Part shown: positions 8,475 through 21,035 of the stretch, piece by piece
How the letters are laid out: every line of letters begins with the position of its first letter
Position numbering within the stretch: position 1 is the first letter of the stretch
Assembly: GCA_021804355.1 (NCBI GenBank)
Contig: JAJZHP010000002.1
Location: 1 to 63,646 of the forward strand
Source of the DNA: Pseudomonadota bacterium
Lineage (GTDB): Bacteria; Pseudomonadota; Gammaproteobacteria; Pseudomonadales; Moraxellaceae
Reading direction: 5' to 3'
Length of the DNA stretch: 63,646 bases
Made by a program: the position numbers and the translations under genes
Notes under the pieces: model-generated
Database searches by the model: none
What the model saw: the letters and a program-made list of their open reading frames with translations, nothing else
What the model was told of the DNA's origin: nothing

Positions 8475-9307
8475 TGAAACTTTGGATTGTCATGCTGGCG
8501 CTGTGGTTGCAGCATCGCTCATCTTTGCCAGCACTGGATTTGATGCGAGACATACTGGGTTCCTGGAGCCAGTCTTTGCGCGACCGCAGGGGAACCCAGG
8601 GCTCAGGCTGGTCGACATTCCTGCTGTGGATGCTGCTGCCTTTGCTGGTTGCTGGATTCGTGTTACATCTGCTGCAGGGTGTGCTGTGGGGGCTGCCCGC
8701 AGATGGCGTGTTCTTGCTGCTAGCTCTGTTGTTTTTAGTTCCGGTACGACCATCCACGTGGCAGACGTTTGCAGAAACGATACCGAAGGCAGAGGATGCT
8801 TTGCCTAATACATCCAGCAAAGGGCTGGAGCTTCGTTATGCCGATGTTCAGGCTCAGGTATTTAATGTCGTCTTGCGTCATAGTCTGGCCCCTTTTTTCT
8901 GGTTAGTGGTATTGGGGCCGCTAGGTTTACTGGCTTATGCACTACTGGTCCTGGCGCAGGAGACTCTGCCAGCAACGGAGCCTTGGGTTCTGCCGTTACC
9001 TCAGTTGTTGGCTTGGGCGGACTGGTTGCCTGGGCGTTGCTGGCTTGTCAGTGCTGCCATGATGAGCGATTTTGCTCAAGGCATCGATCAACTTAAGCGC
9101 GAGACGGTAACCAAGCGGCCTGCACAGGACTTACTTGCCGAACTTCTGAGCCAAACCCTAAAGCACACAGAGTTTAGCGATGATGATGAGGAAGGAGGGG
9201 CTGCCTGGTCGCTTCGGGTGCAACGTGTGCAGGCTTTGCTGAGGCGAGTGCAAGTATTCTGGATTGTGATGCTGGCCATTTTGACTATTTATGCGCCGCT
9301 GTCATGA
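8474..9307 (+). CDS. ampE: AmpE-like inner membrane regulatory protein
   Basis: AmpE is an inner-membrane protein encoded beside AmpD and linked to beta-lactamase regulation. Starting at ATG 8474, which overlaps the ampD stop in TGATG, the protein has 277 residues and begins MKLWIVMLALWLQHR; the longer open frame upstream runs inside ampD and is not expected to be used. Hydrophobic segments occur near residues 50-95, 145-170, 180-200 and 255-275. The central GLELRYADVQAQVFNVVLRHSLAPFFW segment, with ANN-to-FW spacing, fits the family. Its 3' end overlaps the next gene by 17 bp. Sequence identity within the family is typically low, so the call leans partly on gene order. Confidence 0.85.
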   Translation: MKLWIVMLALWLQHRSSLPALDLMRDILGSWSQSLRDRRGTQGSGWSTFLLWMLLPLLVAGFVLHLLQGVLWGLPADGVFLLLALLFLVPVRPSTWQTFAETIPKAEDALPNTSSKGLELRYADVQAQVFNVVLRHSLAPFFWLVVLGPLGLLAYALLVLAQETLPATEPWVLPLPQLLAWADWLPGRCWLVSAAMMSDFAQGIDQLKRETVTKRPAQDLLAELLSQTLKHTEFSDDDEEGGAAWSLRVQRVQALLRRVQVFWIVMLAILTIYAPLS

Positions 9308-10076
9308 AGCACTTATAGCGGTACTGCTAGGGGCGGTGCTAAGCGCTCACGTTCAGGCTGCGCGATTGGTTAGCTTGGCGCCGGCATTGACGGAAACCTT
9401 AGCAGCTTTGCATGCCTGTGACCAAGTGGTGGGGCAACTAGGGGGGCAAGGGGTCACCAACTATTGTCCGCAGGCACCGATATTGGGGACTGCCACAGGC
9501 TGGAGTGAAGAGGCTTTACTGGCAACGCATCCTGATGCGGTGCTGGCCTGGCCCGAGGGTATGCAGTCCGCACGTCTGGAGGCGTTGCAGCAGCGGGGAC
9601 TGGTGGTCTATAGGTATTCCGTGCGACATATGGTGGATGTGCAGTCACAGATATGGCGACTGGGAGTACTGACGGGACACCAGCATGAAGCCCTGATACT
9701 GATAAATAACCTGGAAGTTGAACAACGCGAAACGGCAAGGCGCTATCAGTTCAAGCCCTGGTTGCGCGTATTTTATCAGGTATGGCCTGTACCTTTGATG
9801 ACCTTGGGGCAGGACCATTATGTGACGCATGCCTTAGCTTTATGCCATATTCATTTGCTGGTACCGCAGACGACCTTGGCTGCACCATCGGTGGATCCAG
9901 AGTGGGTGCTTGACCAACATCCTGATCGAATACTGGTGCCTGCTGATCAAGACATTCCTTCATGGTGGGCGCACGGGCACGTGCCCGTGCGGCGGGCTGA
10001 TGTTGCTCGCTTGGAGCGCCCGGGACCTTTTATGCTGAATGATTTGCCAACGATCTGCGATAAGTTGCGGCAGTGA
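9291..10076 (+). CDS. BtuF-like periplasmic cobalamin/metal-chelate binding protein
   Basis: The 261-residue product has a signal peptide (about residues 1-23, ending VQA) and the helical-backbone periplasmic-binding fold of the BtuF/FhuD class, with RLVSLAPALTETLAAL, a central DAVLAWPEG, and a C-terminal DRILVP. Such proteins deliver cobalamin or iron chelates to an inner-membrane ABC transporter. No btuC or btuD is nearby, but the riboswitch-controlled btuB and adenosyltransferase 4 kb away favour cobalamin as ligand. The gene overlaps ampE by 17 bp and ends 59 bp before aceE. Within the gene, 9971-9990 is a perfect 20-bp palindrome (gcacgggcacgtgcccgtgc) that is probably chance in coding sequence. 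Confidence 0.8.
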   Translation: MRRCHEALIAVLLGAVLSAHVQAARLVSLAPALTETLAALHACDQVVGQLGGQGVTNYCPQAPILGTATGWSEEALLATHPDAVLAWPEGMQSARLEALQQRGLVVYRYSVRHMVDVQSQIWRLGVLTGHQHEALILINNLEVEQRETARRYQFKPWLRVFYQVWPVPLMTLGQDHYVTHALALCHIHLLVPQTTLAAPSVDPEWVLDQHPDRILVPADQDIPSWWAHGHVPVRRADVARLERPGPFMLNDLPTICDKLRQ

Positions 10077-12800: not shown

Positions 12801-14381
12801 ATGACACTTAAAACGCTGCACTTCCCCGATCTGGGGACAGAAGATGCTTCGGTGATTGAGGTCAAGGTTTTGCCTGGTCAGTATTTACAGCCTGAGCAGA
12901 CCGTGATGGTGCTGGAGTCGGCCAAAGCCACCATGGAGATTCCTGCTCCTCTGGCGGGTCAGGTCGTCGAAGTGTTGGCCGTTCTGGGTCAGAGCGTTCG
13001 GTCGGGTGACCCCATGGTGAGGGTGGAAGTAGCGGAGATGAGCAACTCGGGGCTGGATCTTGAAACTGTGCTGGAGCAGGCGACACAGAAGCTGGCATCC
13101 CTGGAAGCTAAAGCCGATATTCAGGCAGAACGTATCCTGACGGCTCCTGAGTTGGGTTCGGAAGATGCTCATGTGCTGGAGTTGTTAGTCCAGCCAGGGC
13201 AAATGATTGCAGCTGAGCAATCCATCATGGTGTTGGAGTCGGCCAAGGCTACGATGGAGGTGCCTAGCACCATGACGGGTACAGTCATCCGCTGGTTAGT
13301 TCAGGTCGGCGATGCCGTAGCCTCGGGCCAGCGTTTATTGGTTCTGCACAGCAAGGCTGACGAAAAGGGTCTGGCATTACCTCAACCTGAACCCATCCTG
13401 CCATCGCCAGAGAAGGAACTGCCCTCGTCGTCGCTGCAGCAAGCGCCTGTGCTGACTCGTCTTCAAGTTTCTGGCCCGCATGCGGGTCCTGCCGTACGTC
13501 GTATGGCGCGTGAGCTCGGTGTGGATTTGGCGCGTGTCGATGGACATGGGCCCCATCAGCGCATCGTCAAGGAAGATCTTCAGTCCTATGTCAGGCAGCA
13601 GTTGCAGCAAGCCCCGATGGCTTCCCTGGTGGCAGGGCCTGCAGCTCGATCCTGCGCTGATCAGGAAGCCGCCTTACGTCGCTTGGGTGAAATTGAGAGT
13701 TTGCCCTTTTCGCGCATCCAGCGTTATAGCGCCCAGCATCTGGCTCATGCCTCTGCTGAGGTCGTGCCGGTTACGCAGTTTGATCTGGCGGATATCACCG
13801 ATCTGGAAGCCTTTCGTTTGCAGGAGAAATCTTCCTTGAAAGCCCAGGGGGTTAACCTGACCCTACTGGCATTTCTGGTGCGGGCCTGCACCCATGTCCT
13901 GCAACGATATCCTCGCTTTAACAGTGAGCTGCGTGCTGATGGGGAAGGTATCTTGCTTAAGCACTGGATACACATCGGTGTGGCGGTAGATACGGAAGGA
14001 GGTCTGGTTGTTCCTGTGTTGCGAGATTGTGATCGCCGTGGAATTAGCGATATCGCCCGGCGTCTGGGTGAGGTCTCTGCAGCGGCGAGAGATCAGCGTT
14101 TACGTCCTGAAGATATGACTGGTGGATGTTTTACCATCTCCTCTTTGGGAGGGATCGGTGGAACGGCTTTTACGCCGGTTGTTAACTGGCCTCAGGTCGC
14201 AATTCTTGGCGTTTCGCGGGCCAGCTTGCAGCCGGTATGGGATGGCGAGGGTTTTCGTCCCCGCCTGATGTTGCCTTTGTCATTGACCTACGATCATAGG
14301 GTCATCGACGGCGCCTTGGCGGCACGTTTTACCACCGCTTTGGCAGAGGTGCTTGGCGACGTGCGACGCCTATTGCTTTAG
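12801..14381 (+). CDS. aceF: dihydrolipoamide acetyltransferase (E2 of pyruvate dehydrogenase)
   Basis: AceF transfers acetyl groups from E1 through lipoyl arms to CoA. The 526-residue product has two lipoyl domains, each with the lipoylation motif ESAKATM, near residues 40 and 147. The two copies are about 321 bp apart and are still similar at DNA level. A peripheral subunit-binding domain follows (about 225-262, AVRRMARELGVDLARV), and then the catalytic acetyltransferase domain ending with the active-site DHRVIDG near residue 498. ATG 12801 has a GGAG in front and begins exactly at the first lipoyl domain. It ends in a 4-bp tail-to-tail overlap with the cobalamin adenosyltransferase gene. 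Confidence 0.97.
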   Translation: MTLKTLHFPDLGTEDASVIEVKVLPGQYLQPEQTVMVLESAKATMEIPAPLAGQVVEVLAVLGQSVRSGDPMVRVEVAEMSNSGLDLETVLEQATQKLASLEAKADIQAERILTAPELGSEDAHVLELLVQPGQMIAAEQSIMVLESAKATMEVPSTMTGTVIRWLVQVGDAVASGQRLLVLHSKADEKGLALPQPEPILPSPEKELPSSSLQQAPVLTRLQVSGPHAGPAVRRMARELGVDLARVDGHGPHQRIVKEDLQSYVRQQLQQAPMASLVAGPAARSCADQEAALRRLGEIESLPFSRIQRYSAQHLAHASAEVVPVTQFDLADITDLEAFRLQEKSSLKAQGVNLTLLAFLVRACTHVLQRYPRFNSELRADGEGILLKHWIHIGVAVDTEGGLVVPVLRDCDRRGISDIARRLGEVSAAARDQRLRPEDMTGGCFTISSLGGIGGTAFTPVVNWPQVAILGVSRASLQPVWDGEGFRPRLMLPLSLTYDHRVIDGALAARFTTALAEVLGDVRRLLL

Positions 14382-14929
14382 CCGTTGCTACGATCCCATT
14401 GTATTTCCTGGCCACCTGCCAAACTGACCAACTGCCGGGAGGCCACAAAAAGCCAGTCAGACAAGCGGTTCATATAGCGCAGGAGGCGGGGGGGCAGGGG
14501 CTGCTCCCTGTTCAGGCTTACCATACGCCGTTCGGTGCGCCGTGCTATAGCCCGTGCCAAATGGCAGGCTGCTGCTGCTCGAGTGCCCCCGGCCAGTATG
14601 AACTCCTTTAAGGGGGGTAGCGTCTCGTTCATACGGTCTATACCCTGTTCCAGTTCCTGCGTGACTGTCTCAGAGAGCAGCAACATGCCTGGCATGGCCA
14701 GGTCACCACCTAAGTTCAACAGTTGATGCTGAATGTCGCGTAAGACCGGGGAGAGGTGATGGTCATCGGCTAGCTCACAACGTATCATGCCCAGGGCAGA
14801 GCTCAGTTCATCTATACAACCGAGCACTTCCATGCGCATATCATCTTTGGCAACACGGCTACCGTCAGCCAGACCTGTCGTGCCGTCATCGCCGGTGCGG
14901 GTATAAATCTTGCTCAAACGGTAGCCCAT
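14378..14929 (-). CDS. PduO-type cob(I)alamin adenosyltransferase
   Basis: This enzyme transfers the adenosyl group of ATP to cob(I)alamin to make coenzyme B12. The 183-residue protein begins MGYRLSKIYTRTGDDGTTGL, the ATP-binding motif of the PduO family, and continues with VLGCIDELSSALG. The late AIARRTERRM and YMNRLSDWLF blocks supply the conserved Arg and Asn. I chose ATG 14929, preceded by AAGGAG, rather than upstream in-frame codons inside btuB. It lies 10 bp after the btuB stop and is probably cotranscribed with it under the cobalamin riboswitch. It ends in a 4-bp convergent overlap with aceF. Confidence 0.95.
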   Translation of the reverse strand: MGYRLSKIYTRTGDDGTTGLADGSRVAKDDMRMEVLGCIDELSSALGMIRCELADDHHLSPVLRDIQHQLLNLGGDLAMPGMLLLSETVTQELEQGIDRMNETLPPLKEFILAGGTRAAAACHLARAIARRTERRMVSLNREQPLPPRLLRYMNRLSDWLFVASRQLVSLAGGQEIQWDRSNG

Positions 14930-14939
14930 GGTGAACTCC

Positions 14940-16736
14940 TTAATAGGTGATATCGAGGCCAGCTGTGTACAGCCGAGGCTGGGCACGATAGAAAGATGTA
15001 CTGCTGTTGGCAGCCTGACCATAGGTACGATTCGCTATGTTCTGGATGCCGCTTTGCAACTTCAACCATTTCAGGGCCTGCCACTCAGCGGCTAGATTAA
15101 CGATGCCATAGCCTGCTAGATGGATGCCACTATAATCCTGGCTTTGGCTAGCTGTCAGCCAACTGGCCTGGAAGTGCCAGGCTTTGTGGCTATAGTCGAA
15201 ATCCGATGTCCAGGTTTGTCGTGGGCGGCGCTGCAGGTCCTGCTGGTTGCTCAGGTCGGTAGCTCGCGTCAGATCCAGCTCGGAATGTACCCCCCAAGGA
15301 CCTTGATGGTAGCCCAACGTTGTTTCAAAACCGCGCAGCAAGGCCTTATTGACGTTTTCATATTCACCGCTATAGGTGACGGGATTGATCGTGACCAATT
15401 GAATCAGGTTGCTGACATGATTTCGGTACATGGCCAGATTAAGTTCCCAGGCGTTCCACTGGTTTTTGCTGCCCACTTCATAATTACTGGCTGATTCAGG
15501 GTGCAGCAAGGGATTGGCGCCATAGCCATACAGCTGATCGCCGGTGGGCGCGCTGAAGGCGGTGTTGTGGGTAGCATAGAGTGAACTGCTGGCGGATAGC
15601 GCATACCCTAAGGTCAACTCACCCGTGAGATGGTGTCCCCAGGTATCGCTAGATTCATAGCGTCCAGCTACCTGTGTGCTGAAGTCACCTAGTTGCCAGC
15701 GATCCTGTAGGTAGTTGGCCCAGGTATTGAACGTGTTGTTATACAAGGTGCCATATTCACTGGCGTTATTATGTTGATCCGTATAGGTGCTGCCCACGGT
15801 CAGGTTATTGCCTGGGTGCAGTATGATGTCATTTTGCCAGTCGACGCGATTCTGCCCGGTATAGGCAAAATCAGAGCTTTGCCGCTGGGCTATATTGTCA
15901 ATCGTGCGTGAGGAATTAAGAATCGATTTCCATGCTGCGATCGGTTGCCATTGTATGTTGACGTCACCTTGGCTATTGTAAAAATTTTGTTCTGCAGGAT
16001 TGTTGTTAAAGTCCAGATATTGATTGACGCCTAGCTGTTGATGATAGGCAGCATCAACTTGCGTCGTTTGATCATGCCAGGATAGCGAGGCACTGCCGTG
16101 ATGCTGATAGTTCCCATCGGGCATTGTTGGGTTGAGTGCCGTGGGGTAGAACTGTGGATAGCCTTGCGTGTTGTCATTGCCAATATTGGCGGAGGCACGG
16201 AAGGCCCCTGCTTGTATATCCTGACGCAGGTCGGTTTGCCGGGTCTGCTCAGTACCGGTGGTTAGCTGCAGTTCTGTGGAGGTTTTACCAGCACGGTGCG
16301 TGATGATGTTAATAACGCCGCCCACCGCCTGCGATCCATAAAGGCTGGAGCGGGGACCGCGAACCACTTCGATATGGTCGATGTCCATGGGGTTAAGCAG
16401 GTACTGCAGATTGACGCCTCCGGAGGTGCCCGTATTGACAGGAACGCCATCCACCATGACCAGGGTCTGGTCGGAGTTGGCGCCGCGCATGAATACGGAC
16501 GTTTGCTGGCCTGGGCCACCGCTACGCACGACATCAAGTCCCGCAAAATTAGCCAGAAGCTGGCCGATATCCATGCTGGGGTTGGCCATGATTTGTTCAT
16601 GGCTGATTACGGTGGTAGCTGCCAGGGTTGCTTCGATGGGTTGTTGCACGCGGTCAGGCGTGATGACCATTTCATCATCGGCGTAAGCCGCTGATGATAA
16701 AGCTAGGATTGCACTTAGATACTTGTATTTATTCAC
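14940..16736 (-). CDS. btuB: TonB-dependent vitamin B12 outer membrane receptor
   Basis: BtuB imports cobalamin across the outer membrane using TonB energy. From GTG 16736 the protein has 598 residues, with a signal peptide ending SAAYA and a TonB box-like DEMVITPDR immediately after it. The plug domain shows QTSVFMRGANSDQTLVMVDG and VVRGPRSSLYGSQAVGG. The rest alternates like a 22-strand barrel and ends in an aromatic (GLDITY). I prefer GTG 16736 because GAGG lies 8 bases upstream and gives a proper signal peptide; the frame extends to 16802 without a better start. A cobalamin riboswitch lies in its leader. Confidence 0.93.
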   Translation of the reverse strand: MNKYKYLSAILALSSAAYADDEMVITPDRVQQPIEATLAATTVISHEQIMANPSMDIGQLLANFAGLDVVRSGGPGQQTSVFMRGANSDQTLVMVDGVPVNTGTSGGVNLQYLLNPMDIDHIEVVRGPRSSLYGSQAVGGVINIITHRAGKTSTELQLTTGTEQTRQTDLRQDIQAGAFRASANIGNDNTQGYPQFYPTALNPTMPDGNYQHHGSASLSWHDQTTQVDAAYHQQLGVNQYLDFNNNPAEQNFYNSQGDVNIQWQPIAAWKSILNSSRTIDNIAQRQSSDFAYTGQNRVDWQNDIILHPGNNLTVGSTYTDQHNNASEYGTLYNNTFNTWANYLQDRWQLGDFSTQVAGRYESSDTWGHHLTGELTLGYALSASSSLYATHNTAFSAPTGDQLYGYGANPLLHPESASNYEVGSKNQWNAWELNLAMYRNHVSNLIQLVTINPVTYSGEYENVNKALLRGFETTLGYHQGPWGVHSELDLTRATDLSNQQDLQRRPRQTWTSDFDYSHKAWHFQASWLTASQSQDYSGIHLAGYGIVNLAAEWQALKWLKLQSGIQNIANRTYGQAANSSTSFYRAQPRLYTAGLDITY

Positions 16737-16854
16737 AATAAAAACCTCAAACATGACGGATGACATGGCTTGAGGGAGGGACGTGGGGTGTTCTTGAGGC
16801 AAAAGTCAAGATCAACGACACGGGTGTAGCCCTCCGCAACACCTTGAATGTTCA

Positions 16855-17025
16855 CAGAGGGCCGGTATCCGGGCTGACAGATGCTTTCAGGAAAAGCGGC
16901 CAGACCCTTCCCAGGTCCAAGGACCCAGTGGTGACGTCTAGCCTTCATCTGTTGACCGTTGCGGGGGCAGCGCTCCTGGCCTTAAAGGCCTGAGACTTCC
17001 CGTTTAACCGATAAAATCGGCACCC
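16855..17025 (-). ncRNA. cobalamin (AdoCbl) riboswitch in the btuB leader
   Basis: Read on the minus strand, the leader contains the conserved pieces of a cobalamin riboswitch in order: GGTGCCGATTTTATCGG with AAACGGGAAG, then CTGCCCCCGCAACGGT, then CACCACTGGG, and the B12 box-like TCAGCCCGGATACCGGCC at 16860-16877. Cobalamin binding to such RNAs usually shuts off translation or transcription of uptake genes. Downstream, a short stem GGTGT/ACACC (around 16822-16844) lies before the btuB start and could be part of the expression platform. The boundaries are approximate. The control of btuB plus the adenosyltransferase gene is inferred from position. Confidence 0.9.
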
Positions 17026-17042
17026 GCTGCGCGAACGCGGCG

Positions 17043-17091: not shown

Positions 17092-18135
17092 TTACCTGCC
17101 AGGAGATATCGATTGATTGATAGTCTGACCATCAATCAAGATGGCTTGCAGATGATCAGGTCGGGATGAGGAAGAGTACTTGACGGGAGGTAAAGTGATC
17201 CAGGCTTTTGCTCCCACGGGAGCTTGCAAGCTCATGATGCCTGGAGCGAACTTGTTGTAGGGGTAGTCATTGATAAAAGCAGAGGGGGGCAAGTGTTGCA
17301 GATCCAGCCCCTGCCAGCTAGCCAGGGGCCTATTATGGTTGTCGGTTAAGTTTATGCTCATAATATGAGCCGGTACATCAGCCGTGCCGCCATCGAGATA
17401 AGCATGAAAGACCCAGGAGCCATCAGGGTTTTGGTGGATATGAGAGAAGCTGACGTGGTGCTTGGCGGGACTCACCGGGCCGCCATGAAAGGGGCCCCAT
17501 ACGGAACCACGGTAGTAGCTGTAGGTAGCGATGACAAAAATCATGGTGACGATGAAGGTGCCACGAGACAGGGGAGCTATCCAACGCTCTGGCAGGGGAT
17601 CACTGGCGGCCCAGCCCCAAAGGTTAGATGCTTGATGGTCATGTTGACGTAGCGCATCGATGGACCATGCCCCGGCGCCTGCCAGAAACAGGGTGGCACC
17701 CATACCGAAATTGGCAGCTGCCATGGTCCACTCATCGATACAGGTAGCGCCTTGCCATCCAAAAAGTAGCATCAGAAAAAAACTTAAGCCCATGCTGACC
17801 AAGGCGCTGGCTCGTGTCATAAAGCCGATGAGCAAGCACACACCCACCACCAGTTCGACGGCACTAAAAAAAATCACGGCGGCATAGAGAAGTGCAAAGT
17901 GGGTCAATAGGTAGCTGACGATATGATCCATGCCTAGCAGGGCGCCGGGCATGGCTGTCTGGAATTTATAAGCCATCCAATGATGTGCTGAAGGATCAAG
18001 TTTGCTGGGTGCGTAGATAAAACGTCGGCTACCTCCGCCCCAGTAAATCCAACCTTGCACAAATCGTATGCTGGGCAATGACCATGCCAGGTATTGCCAG
18101 CCTTGATGTTTGTCAGCAGGGAGCGTTGTAGTCAT
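17092..18135 (-). CDS. doxDA: DoxD-DoxA fusion, thiosulfate:quinone oxidoreductase-like membrane protein
   Basis: The 347-residue protein resembles the fused DoxDA subunit of thiosulfate:quinone oxidoreductase, which passes electrons from thiosulfate to the quinone pool and forms tetrathionate. The N-terminal half is the DoxD/DoxX-type membrane part, with RFVQGWIYWGGGSRRFIY, an AVELVVGVCLLIGFMTR helix and WTMAAANFGMGA. The C-terminal half, after a membrane segment near residues 190-208, is the DoxA part with WGPFHGGPVSPAKHHV and later ASWQGLDLQHLPPSAFINDYP. It is the last gene of a minus-strand trio, 9 bp after a binding-protein gene. The thiosulfate substrate is inferred from the family. Confidence 0.85.
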   Translation of the reverse strand: MTTTLPADKHQGWQYLAWSLPSIRFVQGWIYWGGGSRRFIYAPSKLDPSAHHWMAYKFQTAMPGALLGMDHIVSYLLTHFALLYAAVIFFSAVELVVGVCLLIGFMTRASALVSMGLSFFLMLLFGWQGATCIDEWTMAAANFGMGATLFLAGAGAWSIDALRQHDHQASNLWGWAASDPLPERWIAPLSRGTFIVTMIFVIATYSYYRGSVWGPFHGGPVSPAKHHVSFSHIHQNPDGSWVFHAYLDGGTADVPAHIMSINLTDNHNRPLASWQGLDLQHLPPSAFINDYPYNKFAPGIMSLQAPVGAKAWITLPPVKYSSSSRPDHLQAILIDGQTINQSISPGR

Positions 18136-18144
18136 AGCGGGATC

Positions 18145-19092
18145 TCAAGGTTGGACAGGTTCAAAGCCATAGCGTTGTAGTATCTGTTGCGCTGTGGGTG
18201 ATACCAGAAACTGGAGCCATCGCTGTGCGGCTTGTGGGTGCGGTGCATCGCGCAATTGACCGGCGGCATACGTGGCCGTGATGTTGTTTTGCGCGGGAAT
18301 TTTTATCATCGCCAAGGGATGCTTGATCATGCTCTGAAAGACGGCTTCGGATAACCAGGTGACACCGGCATCACCTTGGTGCTGCATAAGCCATAGAGGT
18401 GTCTGGCGATGATGTATGCGCGTGAGTTTTGTCGTGCCATCGTTGACTTTGGTGACGTAAACCTGGTGTAACAGGGTATCACCTCCGGCAGAACGCAAGG
18501 CTTGCTGGATTTGGCGGCCTATGCCTTCGAAGGCTGGGTTCGGCAGTACCACGCGTACCTGAGGCTTGCCTAGGTCAGTTAGGTCATGAATGTGTGCAGG
18601 GTTGTCAGCAGGAATCATGATGGCCAGAACATTGCGGGCATACATCGTTTTATGGATGAGCAAACCCTGTTGTTCCAGAGCAGTAACCCGCTTAAGCCCG
18701 GCGGCATAGATATCTGCATGTACCGTCCAGGTCATGTTGCCTACGGTAACGGTGCCTCCTTGCTGAATTTGCTGAGCCAGCAGTCCCGGGGGCAGAGTCT
18801 CATAGTAAACGTGTTGTCGATATTCAGGGTAAATGTCGATAAATGCATGAACCAGAGGGGCCATGGCAAAAAAATAATTGCCTCCTACCAGGAGTGAGAG
18901 CTGACTGTCCGCGGGATTGCCGTGGAAGTCCGGAAGATTGTCGATGTCAGGGACGGTAAACTCGAGGCCATGCTGGCTAACAGGGTTGTTCTCGCCCTTG
19001 CTCCATGGCGGATAAAGGTCATCGGCCTGTACGATCGTGCTTAAGATAACCAGGACAGGCCATAATCGTTGCAGTAATCTGGGTATGAACAT
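18145..19092 (-). CDS. periplasmic solute-binding protein, ModA/sulfate-binding-like
   Basis: The 315-residue product begins with a signal peptide ending near VQA (about residue 23). The rest fits a type II periplasmic binding fold: LSLLVGGNYFFAMAPLVHAFIDIYPEY near the first lobe, NVLAIMIPADNPAHIHDLTDL in the hinge region and a C-terminal AQRWLQFLVSPTAQQILQRYGF, which is typical of molybdate/sulfate-class binding proteins. No ABC permease or ATPase is linked to it. Instead it sits between a Tat-signal DsrE-like gene (13 bp upstream) and doxDA (9 bp downstream), so it may present a sulfur oxyanion to the DoxDA enzyme or sense it. That role is inference. Confidence 0.75.
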   Translation of the reverse strand: MFIPRLLQRLWPVLVILSTIVQADDLYPPWSKGENNPVSQHGLEFTVPDIDNLPDFHGNPADSQLSLLVGGNYFFAMAPLVHAFIDIYPEYRQHVYYETLPPGLLAQQIQQGGTVTVGNMTWTVHADIYAAGLKRVTALEQQGLLIHKTMYARNVLAIMIPADNPAHIHDLTDLGKPQVRVVLPNPAFEGIGRQIQQALRSAGGDTLLHQVYVTKVNDGTTKLTRIHHRQTPLWLMQHQGDAGVTWLSEAVFQSMIKHPLAMIKIPAQNNITATYAAGQLRDAPHPQAAQRWLQFLVSPTAQQILQRYGFEPVQP

Positions 19093-19105
19093 AGGAAATC
19101 CCTCC

Positions 19106-19906
19106 CTACTTGGCGTACATGAAACCTGCGAGTTGCAGTTCAGGTAGCGTACCTACGATGCCGGGCGTTAATACCACATCAGGAATCAGGTGGTTGGTAA
19201 GTTCAGCGGCAAGGTGAGGTAACGATAATTGGTCCGGATTATTCCCCTGAGCGTGCATTTTGCTGGACAGTTCAAATATTGCATTATGACAGGCGAGAAA
19301 TACGACACCCCGCGCCTGTAGGGTTGGAATGCTGTTGTCTTGGGGAGAAAAAACGCCTGCCGTGTTTTGCAAGTCATGAGGATCGGCGGATAGGGCGACA
19401 GGAATGTTCATCAGGGTGTTGTTTTTGAAGTCGGGGCCAGCTATCTGGCTGAGGTGATATTTGTCCCAGATGTAGTTGTCATAAAGGGCAAGATGCGCTG
19501 TGCCATGTGTGCCTGCCAAGACGAGGAAGTCAGCATGGCCAAAAGCAAAAACCTGGGTGTTAAGGGTGTTACGCATCAAGTTAAGCCAGGGGCCATGCAA
19601 GTCTGTGGCATCCCACACTTGTTTGTAGGGTGCCGCGTAGTTCATGATCAGGGTTAACGCTTCATGATCCCATTGCGAGGGATGATTGAGGATCATGTCA
19701 ACCGAGGTGAACTGACGCCGCCGTGGCGTGGCCTTCAGGGTGGTGATCAGTTTTTTTAGCAGTCCTTTATCAGTGATCAGGTCGGTGGGTATTGCCGATG
19801 AAGGGGAGGCTAACGCGCTGGCGCTGGCGGTGGCTCCTGCAATAGCAGCACTGGTCATCAGTCCCAGTAAGTCTCTGCGGCTCATTTCCATGGTCATCAG
19901 TTCCAT
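19106..19906 (-). CDS. Tat-exported DsrE-like protein
   Basis: The product, up to 266 residues, has a twin-arginine signal (MSRRDLLGLMTSAAIAG) near residues 9-25, so it should be exported folded and perhaps carry a cofactor. The C-terminal 120 residues resemble DsrE/DsrF-like sulfur-carrier proteins: ARGVVFLACHNAIFELSSKM, with a Cys in the position often used as sulfur-binding residue, and a final VVLTPGIVGTLPELQLAGFMYAK. The N-terminal part (LKATPRRRQFTSVDMIL) is unassigned. Three in-frame ATGs before the Tat motif leave the exact start open. It is first in the three-gene operon with a binding protein and DoxDA, supporting a sulfur role. Confidence 0.65.
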   Translation of the reverse strand: MELMTMEMSRRDLLGLMTSAAIAGATASASALASPSSAIPTDLITDKGLLKKLITTLKATPRRRQFTSVDMILNHPSQWDHEALTLIMNYAAPYKQVWDATDLHGPWLNLMRNTLNTQVFAFGHADFLVLAGTHGTAHLALYDNYIWDKYHLSQIAGPDFKNNTLMNIPVALSADPHDLQNTAGVFSPQDNSIPTLQARGVVFLACHNAIFELSSKMHAQGNNPDQLSLPHLAAELTNHLIPDVVLTPGIVGTLPELQLAGFMYAK

Positions 19907-19963: not shown

Positions 19964-20320
19964 TCAAGCAGCTACCATCAATCCCAGGGTCATAGCGGCT
20001 GGAATAAACTGAATGAAAAGTATTTTGCGGTTAGCGGTTGCCGCTCCGTAAAGCCCAGCAATGGCAATGCAGCTTAAAAAAAAGATCTCGTCAGCTCGCC
20101 CCGAAGCGCCTTGTGCTGCGCCCCAGAACAGCCCTGCCGCCAGAAAGCCATTATATAAGCCTTGGTTGGCAGCCAGAACTCGGCTTGCCATGGCGGACTC
20201 CAGGCTTTGACCAAAAGCGCGCAGACCATACGGGCTGGTCCAGAGAAACATCTCCAACACTAAAATATAAACATGCAGGAGAGCTATCAGTATAACAAGG
20301 GCTTCGGTCAGGATTTTCAT
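19964..20320 (-). CDS. DUF1304 small membrane protein
   Basis: The 118-residue product matches the DUF1304 family: a short N-terminal helix, LHVYILVLEMFLWTSPYGLRAFG, then ANQGLYNGFLAAGLFWG and two more hydrophobic segments. About four membrane segments are visible, near residues 5-25, 50-68, 75-93 and 100-117. The role of the family is unknown. It is on the same strand as and just downstream of the transposase-related gene (4 bp gap), and lies upstream of the sulfur trio, separated by 57 bp. Confidence 0.85.
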   Translation of the reverse strand: MKILTEALVILIALLHVYILVLEMFLWTSPYGLRAFGQSLESAMASRVLAANQGLYNGFLAAGLFWGAAQGASGRADEIFFLSCIAIAGLYGAATANRKILFIQFIPAAMTLGLMVAA

Positions 20321-20324
20321 GAGG

Positions 20325-21035
20325 TTAAGAGGCTCCCAGCACAGTTTGTAGGTGTTGTCTTAGGTGACGCCATGGCGACTTAGGCTTAGGTCGGTCAGTG
20401 ATCATGTCTAAGGGCGGGGCGGGCAGCAGTCTGGTGAAGGGGGCCGTTACCTGCTCCGGAGCCACCCATGCCAGAAAATAGTGGTGATTGCCCTGTAAAA
20501 GTTCGGGAAGAGGGGCGGTCGGTAATCGCATTAACCATGCATAGCTTTTTTGTTCTTGCGCGAGCTGATTTAACAAGCGGTGGGTATCTACCCAGGGGAC
20601 ATCATGGGGGCGAAGGTAGGCGCTATGACTGCTCGCAGGATAACGTTCAAAGTTTTGCTGACAGTTGACTTGAACGGGCAGGTGATGCACATGCCGCACC
20701 ACTTCTTTTAAATAACGTTTTTCATCGACCCACAAGCTATGCCAATGACGTATAGAGGTAGGGTCATCATCAGCGGGTCCATGAGGGTATTTTATCGCTA
20801 AGCTAAATTCCAGGTTAAAAGCAGCCAGCCCCTGAGTGCCCGAATACAAGACCAAGTGCAGTTCATCGGGCAGTAAGCAATAAGCGTATAAGGAACAACC
20901 GCTGGCGCGCAAACTTGCACGCAGGCAGCGTTGCACATGGTGTACCCAGGATAGGCTCAGTACGGCGCTGCGCTGCAACCGAATTTGCACATAGTAGGTA
21001 CTGTTAGCGAGGTGTAGGGCATGTTTTTTTGGCAT
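20325..21035 (-). CDS. REP-associated (Y1/HUH) transposase-like protein, HUH motif altered
   Basis: The 236-residue protein resembles REP-associated tyrosine transposases (RAYT). It has the opening HLANSTYYVQIRLQ, a LRASGCSLYAYCLLPDELHLVL segment where family members have MPNHVHLL, and YLKEVVRHVHHLPVQVN followed by YPASSHSAYL as in RYIHLNPV-type helices. The HUH metal motif reads E58-L59-H60, so its first His is missing. Tyrosine is present in the YLKEV helix. I see no flanking inverted repeats or REP palindromes. It could be a domesticated or inactive relative. The stop lies 4 bp before the DUF1304 start. Confidence 0.75.
   Translation of the reverse strand: MPKKHALHLANSTYYVQIRLQRSAVLSLSWVHHVQRCLRASLRASGCSLYAYCLLPDELHLVLYSGTQGLAAFNLEFSLAIKYPHGPADDDPTSIRHWHSLWVDEKRYLKEVVRHVHHLPVQVNCQQNFERYPASSHSAYLRPHDVPWVDTHRLLNQLAQEQKSYAWLMRLPTAPLPELLQGNHHYFLAWVAPEQVTAPFTRLLPAPPLDMITDRPKPKSPWRHLRQHLQTVLGAS

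Follow-up and report, generated by a model that had tools for sequence, protein, structure and literature searches.

A stretch of 63,646 nucleotides from a Pseudomonadota bacterium of the Moraxellaceae (assembly GCA_021804355.1, contig JAJZHP010000002.1, positions 1 to 63,646; hereafter the window) was found to carry a three-gene operon, tsd-sbp-doxDA, which is almost certainly of the kind of thiosulfate-oxidation operon described for Acidithiobacillus ferrooxidans. Comparison with other genomes supports a constant pair as the core of such loci, consisting of an exported thiosulfate dehydrogenase (TSD) or a short exported DsrE protein together with a solute-binding protein (SBP), outside any ATP-binding cassette (ABC) transport locus. 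DoxDA is not a constant member of these loci and is exchanged for TsdA/TsdB-type cytochromes. The three-gene arrangement is already known, and the wider pattern of partner exchange is what is added here. The features of the operon are as follows:

19106-19906, minus strand: tsd, 266 aa, Tat (twin-arginine translocation)-exported protein of the thiosulfate dehydrogenase family (NF052225) with a single cysteine, C206
19289-19291, minus strand: codon of C206 in tsd, the proposed thiosulfate-binding site (position read from the sequence, role inferred)
18145-19092, minus strand: sbp, 315 aa, exported solute-binding protein of the SBP_bac_11 family, cysteine-free and with an additional motif at the N-terminus
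17092-18135, minus strand: doxDA, 347 aa, fused membrane thiosulfate:quinone oxidoreductase-like protein (Pfam DoxD and DoxA)

The genes are separated by gaps of 13 bp (tsd-sbp) and 9 bp (sbp-doxDA), in agreement with an earlier reading made without database searches (the sequence-only reading). Their identities by family, their order and the conservation of the TSD-SBP pair were established by the searches described below. Among 117 related genomes, that of the window included, five have tsd and all five carry tsd-sbp-doxDA in this order; because every tsd-bearing genome has all three genes in the same order, the arrangement is taken to be more than chance. Strong DoxDA matches were found in the same five genomes, with two weak ones elsewhere, and strong SBP matches in these five and one more (G029). 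One copy each of tsd and doxDA was found in the genome of the window.

To place the pair in a wider context, 597 genomes from three proteobacterial families were searched, with the SBP subfamily scored at E≤1e-30. TSD was detected in 33 of the 597 genomes (12/199, 9/198 and 12/200), a number which includes two matches under the NCBIfam cut-off, a split gene in G597 and a fragment in G822. The SBP subfamily was detected in 39 genomes (14, 10 and 15 by family). The SBP was present in 25 of the 33 genomes with TSD and in 14 of the 564 without it (Fisher 2e-27, relatedness ignored), so that TSD and SBP keep company outside close relatives, as the sequence-only reading had proposed should be checked. 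The SBP adjoins TSD in 23 of the 33 genomes; G394 and G596 have it at a distance, elsewhere in the genome or on a different contig. In a phylum-wide sample of 398 genomes TSD was found in six, and it was found in none of 14 control genomes. A profile scan of contigs with the TSD alignment had returned only eight loci, resting on two short peptide patterns, and was replaced by the family searches.

Anchoring on the SBP gave 64 loci, which were reduced to 47 clusters at 90% SBP identity. Neighbouring genes were classified with hidden Markov models (HMMs), an all-against-all clustering of open reading frames (ORFs) having been dropped for the spurious overlapping ORFs of GC-rich genomes. TSD lies upstream of the SBP in 26 clusters, a short exported DsrE protein in 10 and neither in 11; in 36 of the 47, then, the SBP has one of these two partners beside it. 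The totals of 47 clusters and 39 SBP genomes include G722 and G790, two genomes with weak SBP matches of approximately 130 bits. A small number of these loci served as seeds for the DsrE and cytochrome HMMs, and seed loci therefore match by construction; the DsrE matches at L180, L181, L182 and L184 are non-seeds. Six of the ten DsrE clusters were tested against Pfam and all six exceeded the PF02635 cut-off (L027, L124, L125, L126, L131 and L180). Among the eleven clusters scored as lacking a partner, L173 has next to its SBP a DsrE gene that exceeds the Pfam cut-off and that the DsrE HMM had missed. The DsrE-SBP pair was also found in the Bacteroidota, on Hymenobacter and Spirosoma plasmids, the Spirosoma SBP being in two fragments. 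It should also be noted that in three genomes of one genus (L171, L172 and L174) the SBP has no nearby match to the TSD, DsrE, DoxDA or cytochrome HMMs; in two of these the upstream ORF resembles, by eye, AMP nucleosidase.

For the third gene of the locus a distance of up to 6.5 kb was considered, and genes on both strands were counted. DoxDA is present in 13 of the 36 paired clusters and TsdA/TsdB-type cytochromes in 22; one cluster has neither and none has both, a mutual exclusion with a Fisher value of 6e-9 when relatedness is ignored. Some loci end at contig ends, and a missing partner is therefore no proof of absence; at some loci (L125, L180, L181 and L182) the third gene is encoded on the other strand. 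A tree was built from 43 SBPs, of which 33 carried a third-slot label; 13 of its 40 inner branches are open. It required at least seven changes of the third slot and at least two changes between TSD and DsrE. This tree leaves out G722, G790 and the broken copies L035 and L131. DoxDA (E≤1e-10) was sought in 45 genomes carrying TSD or SBP, G722 and G790 again being left out; five have it, each time at the TSD/SBP locus. The module proposed in the sequence-only reading is thus upheld for the Tat protein and the binding protein, which form a lasting partnership, and is not upheld for DoxDA as a fixed third member. No account of an exchange between DoxDA and TsdBA beside a TSD/DsrE-SBP pair was found in the open-access literature searched, most subscription papers lying outside the search.

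The cytochrome in the third slot of Bradyrhizobium is a close relative of TsdA, matching the thiosulfate dehydrogenase 4wq7 with an E value of 2e-55 and 5lo9 with 1e-89, and the counterpart cytochrome of G029 matches the same two entries. Besides two CxxCH motifs, an extra cysteine is present in all 42 rows of the third-slot cytochromes, as is also the case for SoxA and TsdA. No match to the cytochrome HMMs was detected in the window between 10 and 27 kb.

The product of tsd matched the NCBIfam thiosulfate dehydrogenase family NF052225 with 351.3 bits (cut-off 300) over the whole of the profile (1-259 of 259), a point which the sequence-only reading had overlooked. Export of the protein, as claimed there, agrees with the twin-arginine motif SRRDLLGL at its N-terminus; the "cysteine block" ascribed to it was a mistake, as the sole cysteine is C206 within the motif ACHN. 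C206 and H207 occur in 56 of 56 aligned TSD rows (>200 bits), an alignment that retains near-identical rows. The claimed likeness to DsrE is borne out weakly, by comparison of folds and profiles. With a second structural aligner only 4 of 161 chains reached Z≥2 against the model of TSD, all of DsrE/TusD type: 2pd2 and 8uja (each Z 4.9, root-mean-square deviation (rmsd) 2.9, 91 aligned), 1l1s (Z 4.7, rmsd 3.3, 96 aligned) and 2d1p_C (Z 3.0, rmsd 3.4, 82 aligned). Three of these four chains are the only PDB relatives of the short DsrE profile at E≤0.01. Comparison by hhalign of the 56 TSDs with the 13 rows of the DsrE profile gave 78% with an E value of 1.8e-5 and cysteine aligned on cysteine, against 0.1-1.3% for five control profiles. 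TSD may thus itself be a DsrE-like protein; in its low-confidence model the strand 202-206 ends at C206. The top Foldseek rows for the TSD model (maltose-binding fusions and phosphatases) were discarded as meaningless at its predicted local distance difference test (pLDDT) value of 58, and phmmer detected no PDB relative of TSD or of DoxDA at E≤10. In 11 of 24 plasmid records TSD is annotated as "transcriptional initiation protein Tat", a misleading name which hides a sulfur enzyme and under which bacteria of soil, plants and food carry it on plasmids.

The binding protein matched Pfam SBP_bac_11 with 163.4 bits, begins with what was judged by eye to resemble a signal peptide and contains no cysteine. 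It has an extra N-terminal motif, PPW..G...F.V...D..DFHG, of which residues P28, P29, G42, F45, D55 and G58 are present in all 61 SBP rows. Its structural model (pLDDT 69) fits binding proteins for sulfate and for molybdate to a similar degree, the best scores being Z 17.6 for both 6ddn (rmsd 3.2, 227 aligned) and 4kd5 (rmsd 3.5, 220 aligned), with Z 16.8 for 1sbp (rmsd 3.5, 233 aligned). This fold, together with distant sequence similarity to such proteins, is what could speak for an ordinary component of a sulfate, thiosulfate or molybdate ABC transporter with its permease encoded elsewhere. Such a role is considered very improbable. The SBP falls under the NCBIfam cut-offs for the sulfate family TIGR00971 (27.6 against 155.5 bits), NF008106 (29.9 against 308) and the modA family TIGR01256 (35.1 against 62.5), and by these scores it is not placed in the molybdate and sulfate transport families; clustering with such proteins would, according to the sequence-only reading, have told against its module. 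That reading had also remarked on a binding protein without transporter genes. A Pfam scan of 12 proteins encoded around the operon, from 8.4 to 24.3 kb and a subset of the ORFs, found no ABC permease or ATPase, nor is any listed in the incomplete gene tables of 14 annotated plasmid regions that carry this SBP. Furthermore, glutamate (E189) is found in 61 of 61 SBPs at the position of a sulfate-binding serine of 1sbp, and a changed oxyanion pocket is likely. Thiosulfate is the presumed ligand. A second, shorter binding protein often adjoins the first, with HMM matches at L115 (6007-6771), L122, L124 (6857-7630), L126 (6928-7698), L130, L173 and L184, and some loci therefore have two.

DoxDA combines in one chain a DoxD domain (107.6 bits) and a DoxA domain (36.8 bits), both over the Pfam cut-offs, and is therefore fused, as had been read from the sequence. 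Against NF041179, the equivalog for the DoxD large subunit, it scored 77.6 bits with a cut-off of 300; the Pfam label DoxDA was therefore kept, and its enzyme activity is inferred. C132, within TCxDEWTM, is invariant in 16 of 16 rows, and a crude hydropathy scan indicated hydrophobic stretches at 65-133 and 184-205. A DoxDA-like gene approximately 48-53% identical to that of the window is present in 13 Salmonella plasmid records, for example on a Salmonella enterica plasmid (L128, 5968-7071); in the one Salmonella plasmid region inspected it stands alone.

The sequence-only reading had regarded the combination of the three families as non-standard; it has in fact been published. According to the available text of Valdes (2008, PMC2621215), A. 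ferrooxidans has two clusters in which doxDA is accompanied by genes for a TAT-signal protein and a periplasmic solute-binding protein, and a similar organisation was remarked in Gluconobacter oxydans. AFE_0041-0046 were described as the operon of a thiosulfate-quinone oxidoreductase complex, with values read in that account as raised on sulfur relative to iron (Quatrini 2009, PMC2754497). AFE_0042, a relative of the window's TSD, is given as a thiosulfate dehydrogenase with reported tetrathionate-forming activity, its gene identified in 2013 (Kikumoto 2013, via Wang 2019), and tsd, sbp and doxDA are placed in one cluster (Wang 2019, PMC6335251). As the order tsd-sbp-doxDA is thus published for AFE_0042-0044, the arrangement is known. 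By these descriptions AFE_0042-0044, with a second copy in the AFE_0047-0050 region, comprise the same three families in the same order as the window; the A. ferrooxidans clusters also carry rhodanese and other genes, and differ in copy number from the single copy found here. On the plasmid NZ_LT900339.1 of G. oxydans 621H (154357-157319) a Tat protein, a binding protein and a DoxD-annotated gene are adjacent in the same order; this locus differs in being plasmid-borne, with identities of approximately 57% for TSD (78% of the query) and 52% for DoxDA. The order was also found on a Kozakia plasmid.

Two other kinds of system offer comparison. TsdA/TsdB resemble TSD in that thiosulfate is oxidised outside the cytoplasm, TsdA being described as a soluble periplasmic catalyst of tetrathionate formation (PMC4175335, in the text available), and differ in that TsdA is a diheme cytochrome, profile comparison of TSD with the TsdA type giving only 1.3%. 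In SoxXA-SoxYZ and DsrE3A-TusA thiosulfate is carried on a protein cysteine (PMC4175335), as is proposed for TSD; these are unlike proteins, TSD having one cysteine and a Tat signal, and its loading at C206 is our proposal. A Cys-S-thiosulfonate was described for Metallosphaera DsrE3A with tetrathionate in the same source.

In the accessible text of Wang (2019, PMC6335251) TSD did not reduce ubiquinone or horse cytochrome c, and in a figure of a 2024 review its electron acceptor is marked "?" (Kanao 2024), from which a dedicated partner is to be expected. We therefore favour, with moderate confidence, a scheme in which TSD and SBP would serve as a front end, thiosulfate being loaded on C206 and the electrons removed by DoxDA here and by TsdBA elsewhere. 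In its favour count the family membership of TSD, the recurrence of the gene order in A. ferrooxidans, Gluconobacter and Kozakia, the exchange of third-slot partners, the restriction of DoxDA to this locus in the 45 genomes searched, the kinship of the Bradyrhizobium cytochrome with TsdA, the invariance of C206 and H207, and the alignment of TSD with DsrE proteins, one of which is described as carrying a Cys-S-thiosulfonate. The exported SBP would capture a sulfur oxyanion, most likely thiosulfate, and hand it over to TSD, C206 of which would be oxidatively loaded as a Cys-S-thiosulfonate; a second thiosulfate would then release tetrathionate. DoxDA would be the membrane partner passing two electrons to quinone, and in other bacteria TSD or short DsrE with SBP would be wired to TsdA/TsdB-type cytochromes and thence to cytochrome oxidases. 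Beyond the gene identities, all of these steps are put forward as possibilities. The more general proposal, that a single-cysteine DsrE-like protein and its dedicated SBP form an exchangeable front end plugged repeatedly into DoxDA (quinone) and TsdBA (cytochrome c), is advanced more tentatively. If true, such a front end would work like SoxYZ with another fold and would provide TSD with the electron acceptor that it has so far lacked. That one pair of genes keeps company with either of two unrelated thiosulfate-oxidising enzymes suggests how TSD may be wired. The acceptor still being marked "?" in the review, the coupling is directly open to test, and the neighbouring SBP appears without a tested role in the available text of the published accounts of TSD; as the same pair is found with either DoxDA or TsdBA, both matters could be put to the test in an organism amenable to experiment, for instance G. 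oxydans.

Several observations weigh against this scheme or its parts. TSD occurs without an adjacent SBP in 10 of 33 genomes, and 11 of 47 SBP clusters lack TSD or DsrE by HMM. DoxDA works or occurs without TSD and SBP: thirteen of 19 DoxDA plasmid records are from Salmonella, where neither TSD nor SBP was matched at the thresholds applied, and archaeal thiosulfate:quinone oxidoreductase (TQO) and the doxDA loci of A. caldus and A. thiooxidans are further cases (PMC6335251, available text). As regards likeness to DsrE, TSD gave no match to Pfam DsrE (PF02635) at E≤1 and did not reach its gathering score; its model is poor (pLDDT 58); Foldseek returned nothing at E≤0.001; all structural Z scores are below 5; and hhalign with a smaller pair of alignments gave only 51%. 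Thiol-redox genes were found in neither of the two annotated DoxDA-type plasmid regions (Gluconobacter and Kozakia), nor among the 12 scanned neighbours in the window. TsdA is a complete thiosulfate dehydrogenase that forms tetrathionate, and the third slot may therefore be the oxidase and not the acceptor. DsrE3A, moreover, reacted with tetrathionate and not with thiosulfate (PMC4175335, available text).

Two other explanations have to be weighed against this background. TSD and DoxDA could be parallel enzymes, each oxidising thiosulfate to tetrathionate and merely co-regulated, with the SBP concentrating thiosulfate. This is the picture given in the available text of two reviews, in which TQO and TSD are listed as alternatives (Wang 2019, PMC6335251; Kanao 2024), and it agrees with the measurable activity of the AFE_0042 enzyme alone and with the occurrence of DoxDA alone in Salmonella plasmids and, in A. 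caldus and A. thiooxidans, in the absence of TSD (PMC6335251). It would leave unexplained both the exclusion between DoxDA and TsdA-type cytochromes at the 36 paired clusters and the failure of TSD with ubiquinone and cytochrome c, and we consider it unlikely, if the strongest of the competitors. Somewhat less probable still is that DoxDA or TsdA is the oxidase and that TSD or DsrE with SBP receives or splits a thiosulfonate or tetrathionate, as SoxYZ does for SoxXA. Such a carrier role would suit the relationship of the third-slot proteins to known tetrathionate formers (TQO, PMC6335251, and TsdA), the replacement of TSD by short DsrE in 10 of 36 paired clusters and the description of DsrE3A as taking thiosulfate from tetrathionate (PMC4175335). 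It sits poorly with the TSD relative AFE_0042 being reported as a thiosulfate dehydrogenase itself (PMC6335251); TSD and short DsrE are, furthermore, only remotely alike and may therefore not share one job.

Eight of the 11 annotated TSD regions have thiol-redox genes (DsbD, DsbA, DsbC, TlpA or thioredoxin) close to TSD, which speaks for the favoured scheme. On the Bradyrhizobium plasmids of L112, L123 and L127, DsbD, DsbA and a two-component regulator are upstream of TSD, together with an L,D-transpeptidase at L123 and L127, and on a Martelella plasmid (L129) DsbD, DsbA and a two-component regulator stand beside a lone DoxDA. Such a set beside TSD or DoxDA is reminiscent of a thiol-maintenance cassette.

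Within the window, a DUF1304 gene (19964-20320) lies 57 bp upstream of tsd, and 4 bp from it is an ORF on the minus strand (20325-21035) with a weak match to REP-associated tyrosine transposases (19.4 bits, far under the cut-off of 80). A cobalamin riboswitch (RF00174, 72.8 bits) was detected on the minus strand at 16843-17042, 49 bp past the doxDA stop, and heads a vitamin-B12-receptor-like TonB gene (14940-16802) and a cobalamin adenosyltransferase gene (14378-15022). A Peripla_BP_2 protein, perhaps a cobalamin-related binding protein, is encoded on the plus strand at 9291-10076, with an unassigned ORF on one side and a pyruvate dehydrogenase E1-type gene on the other.

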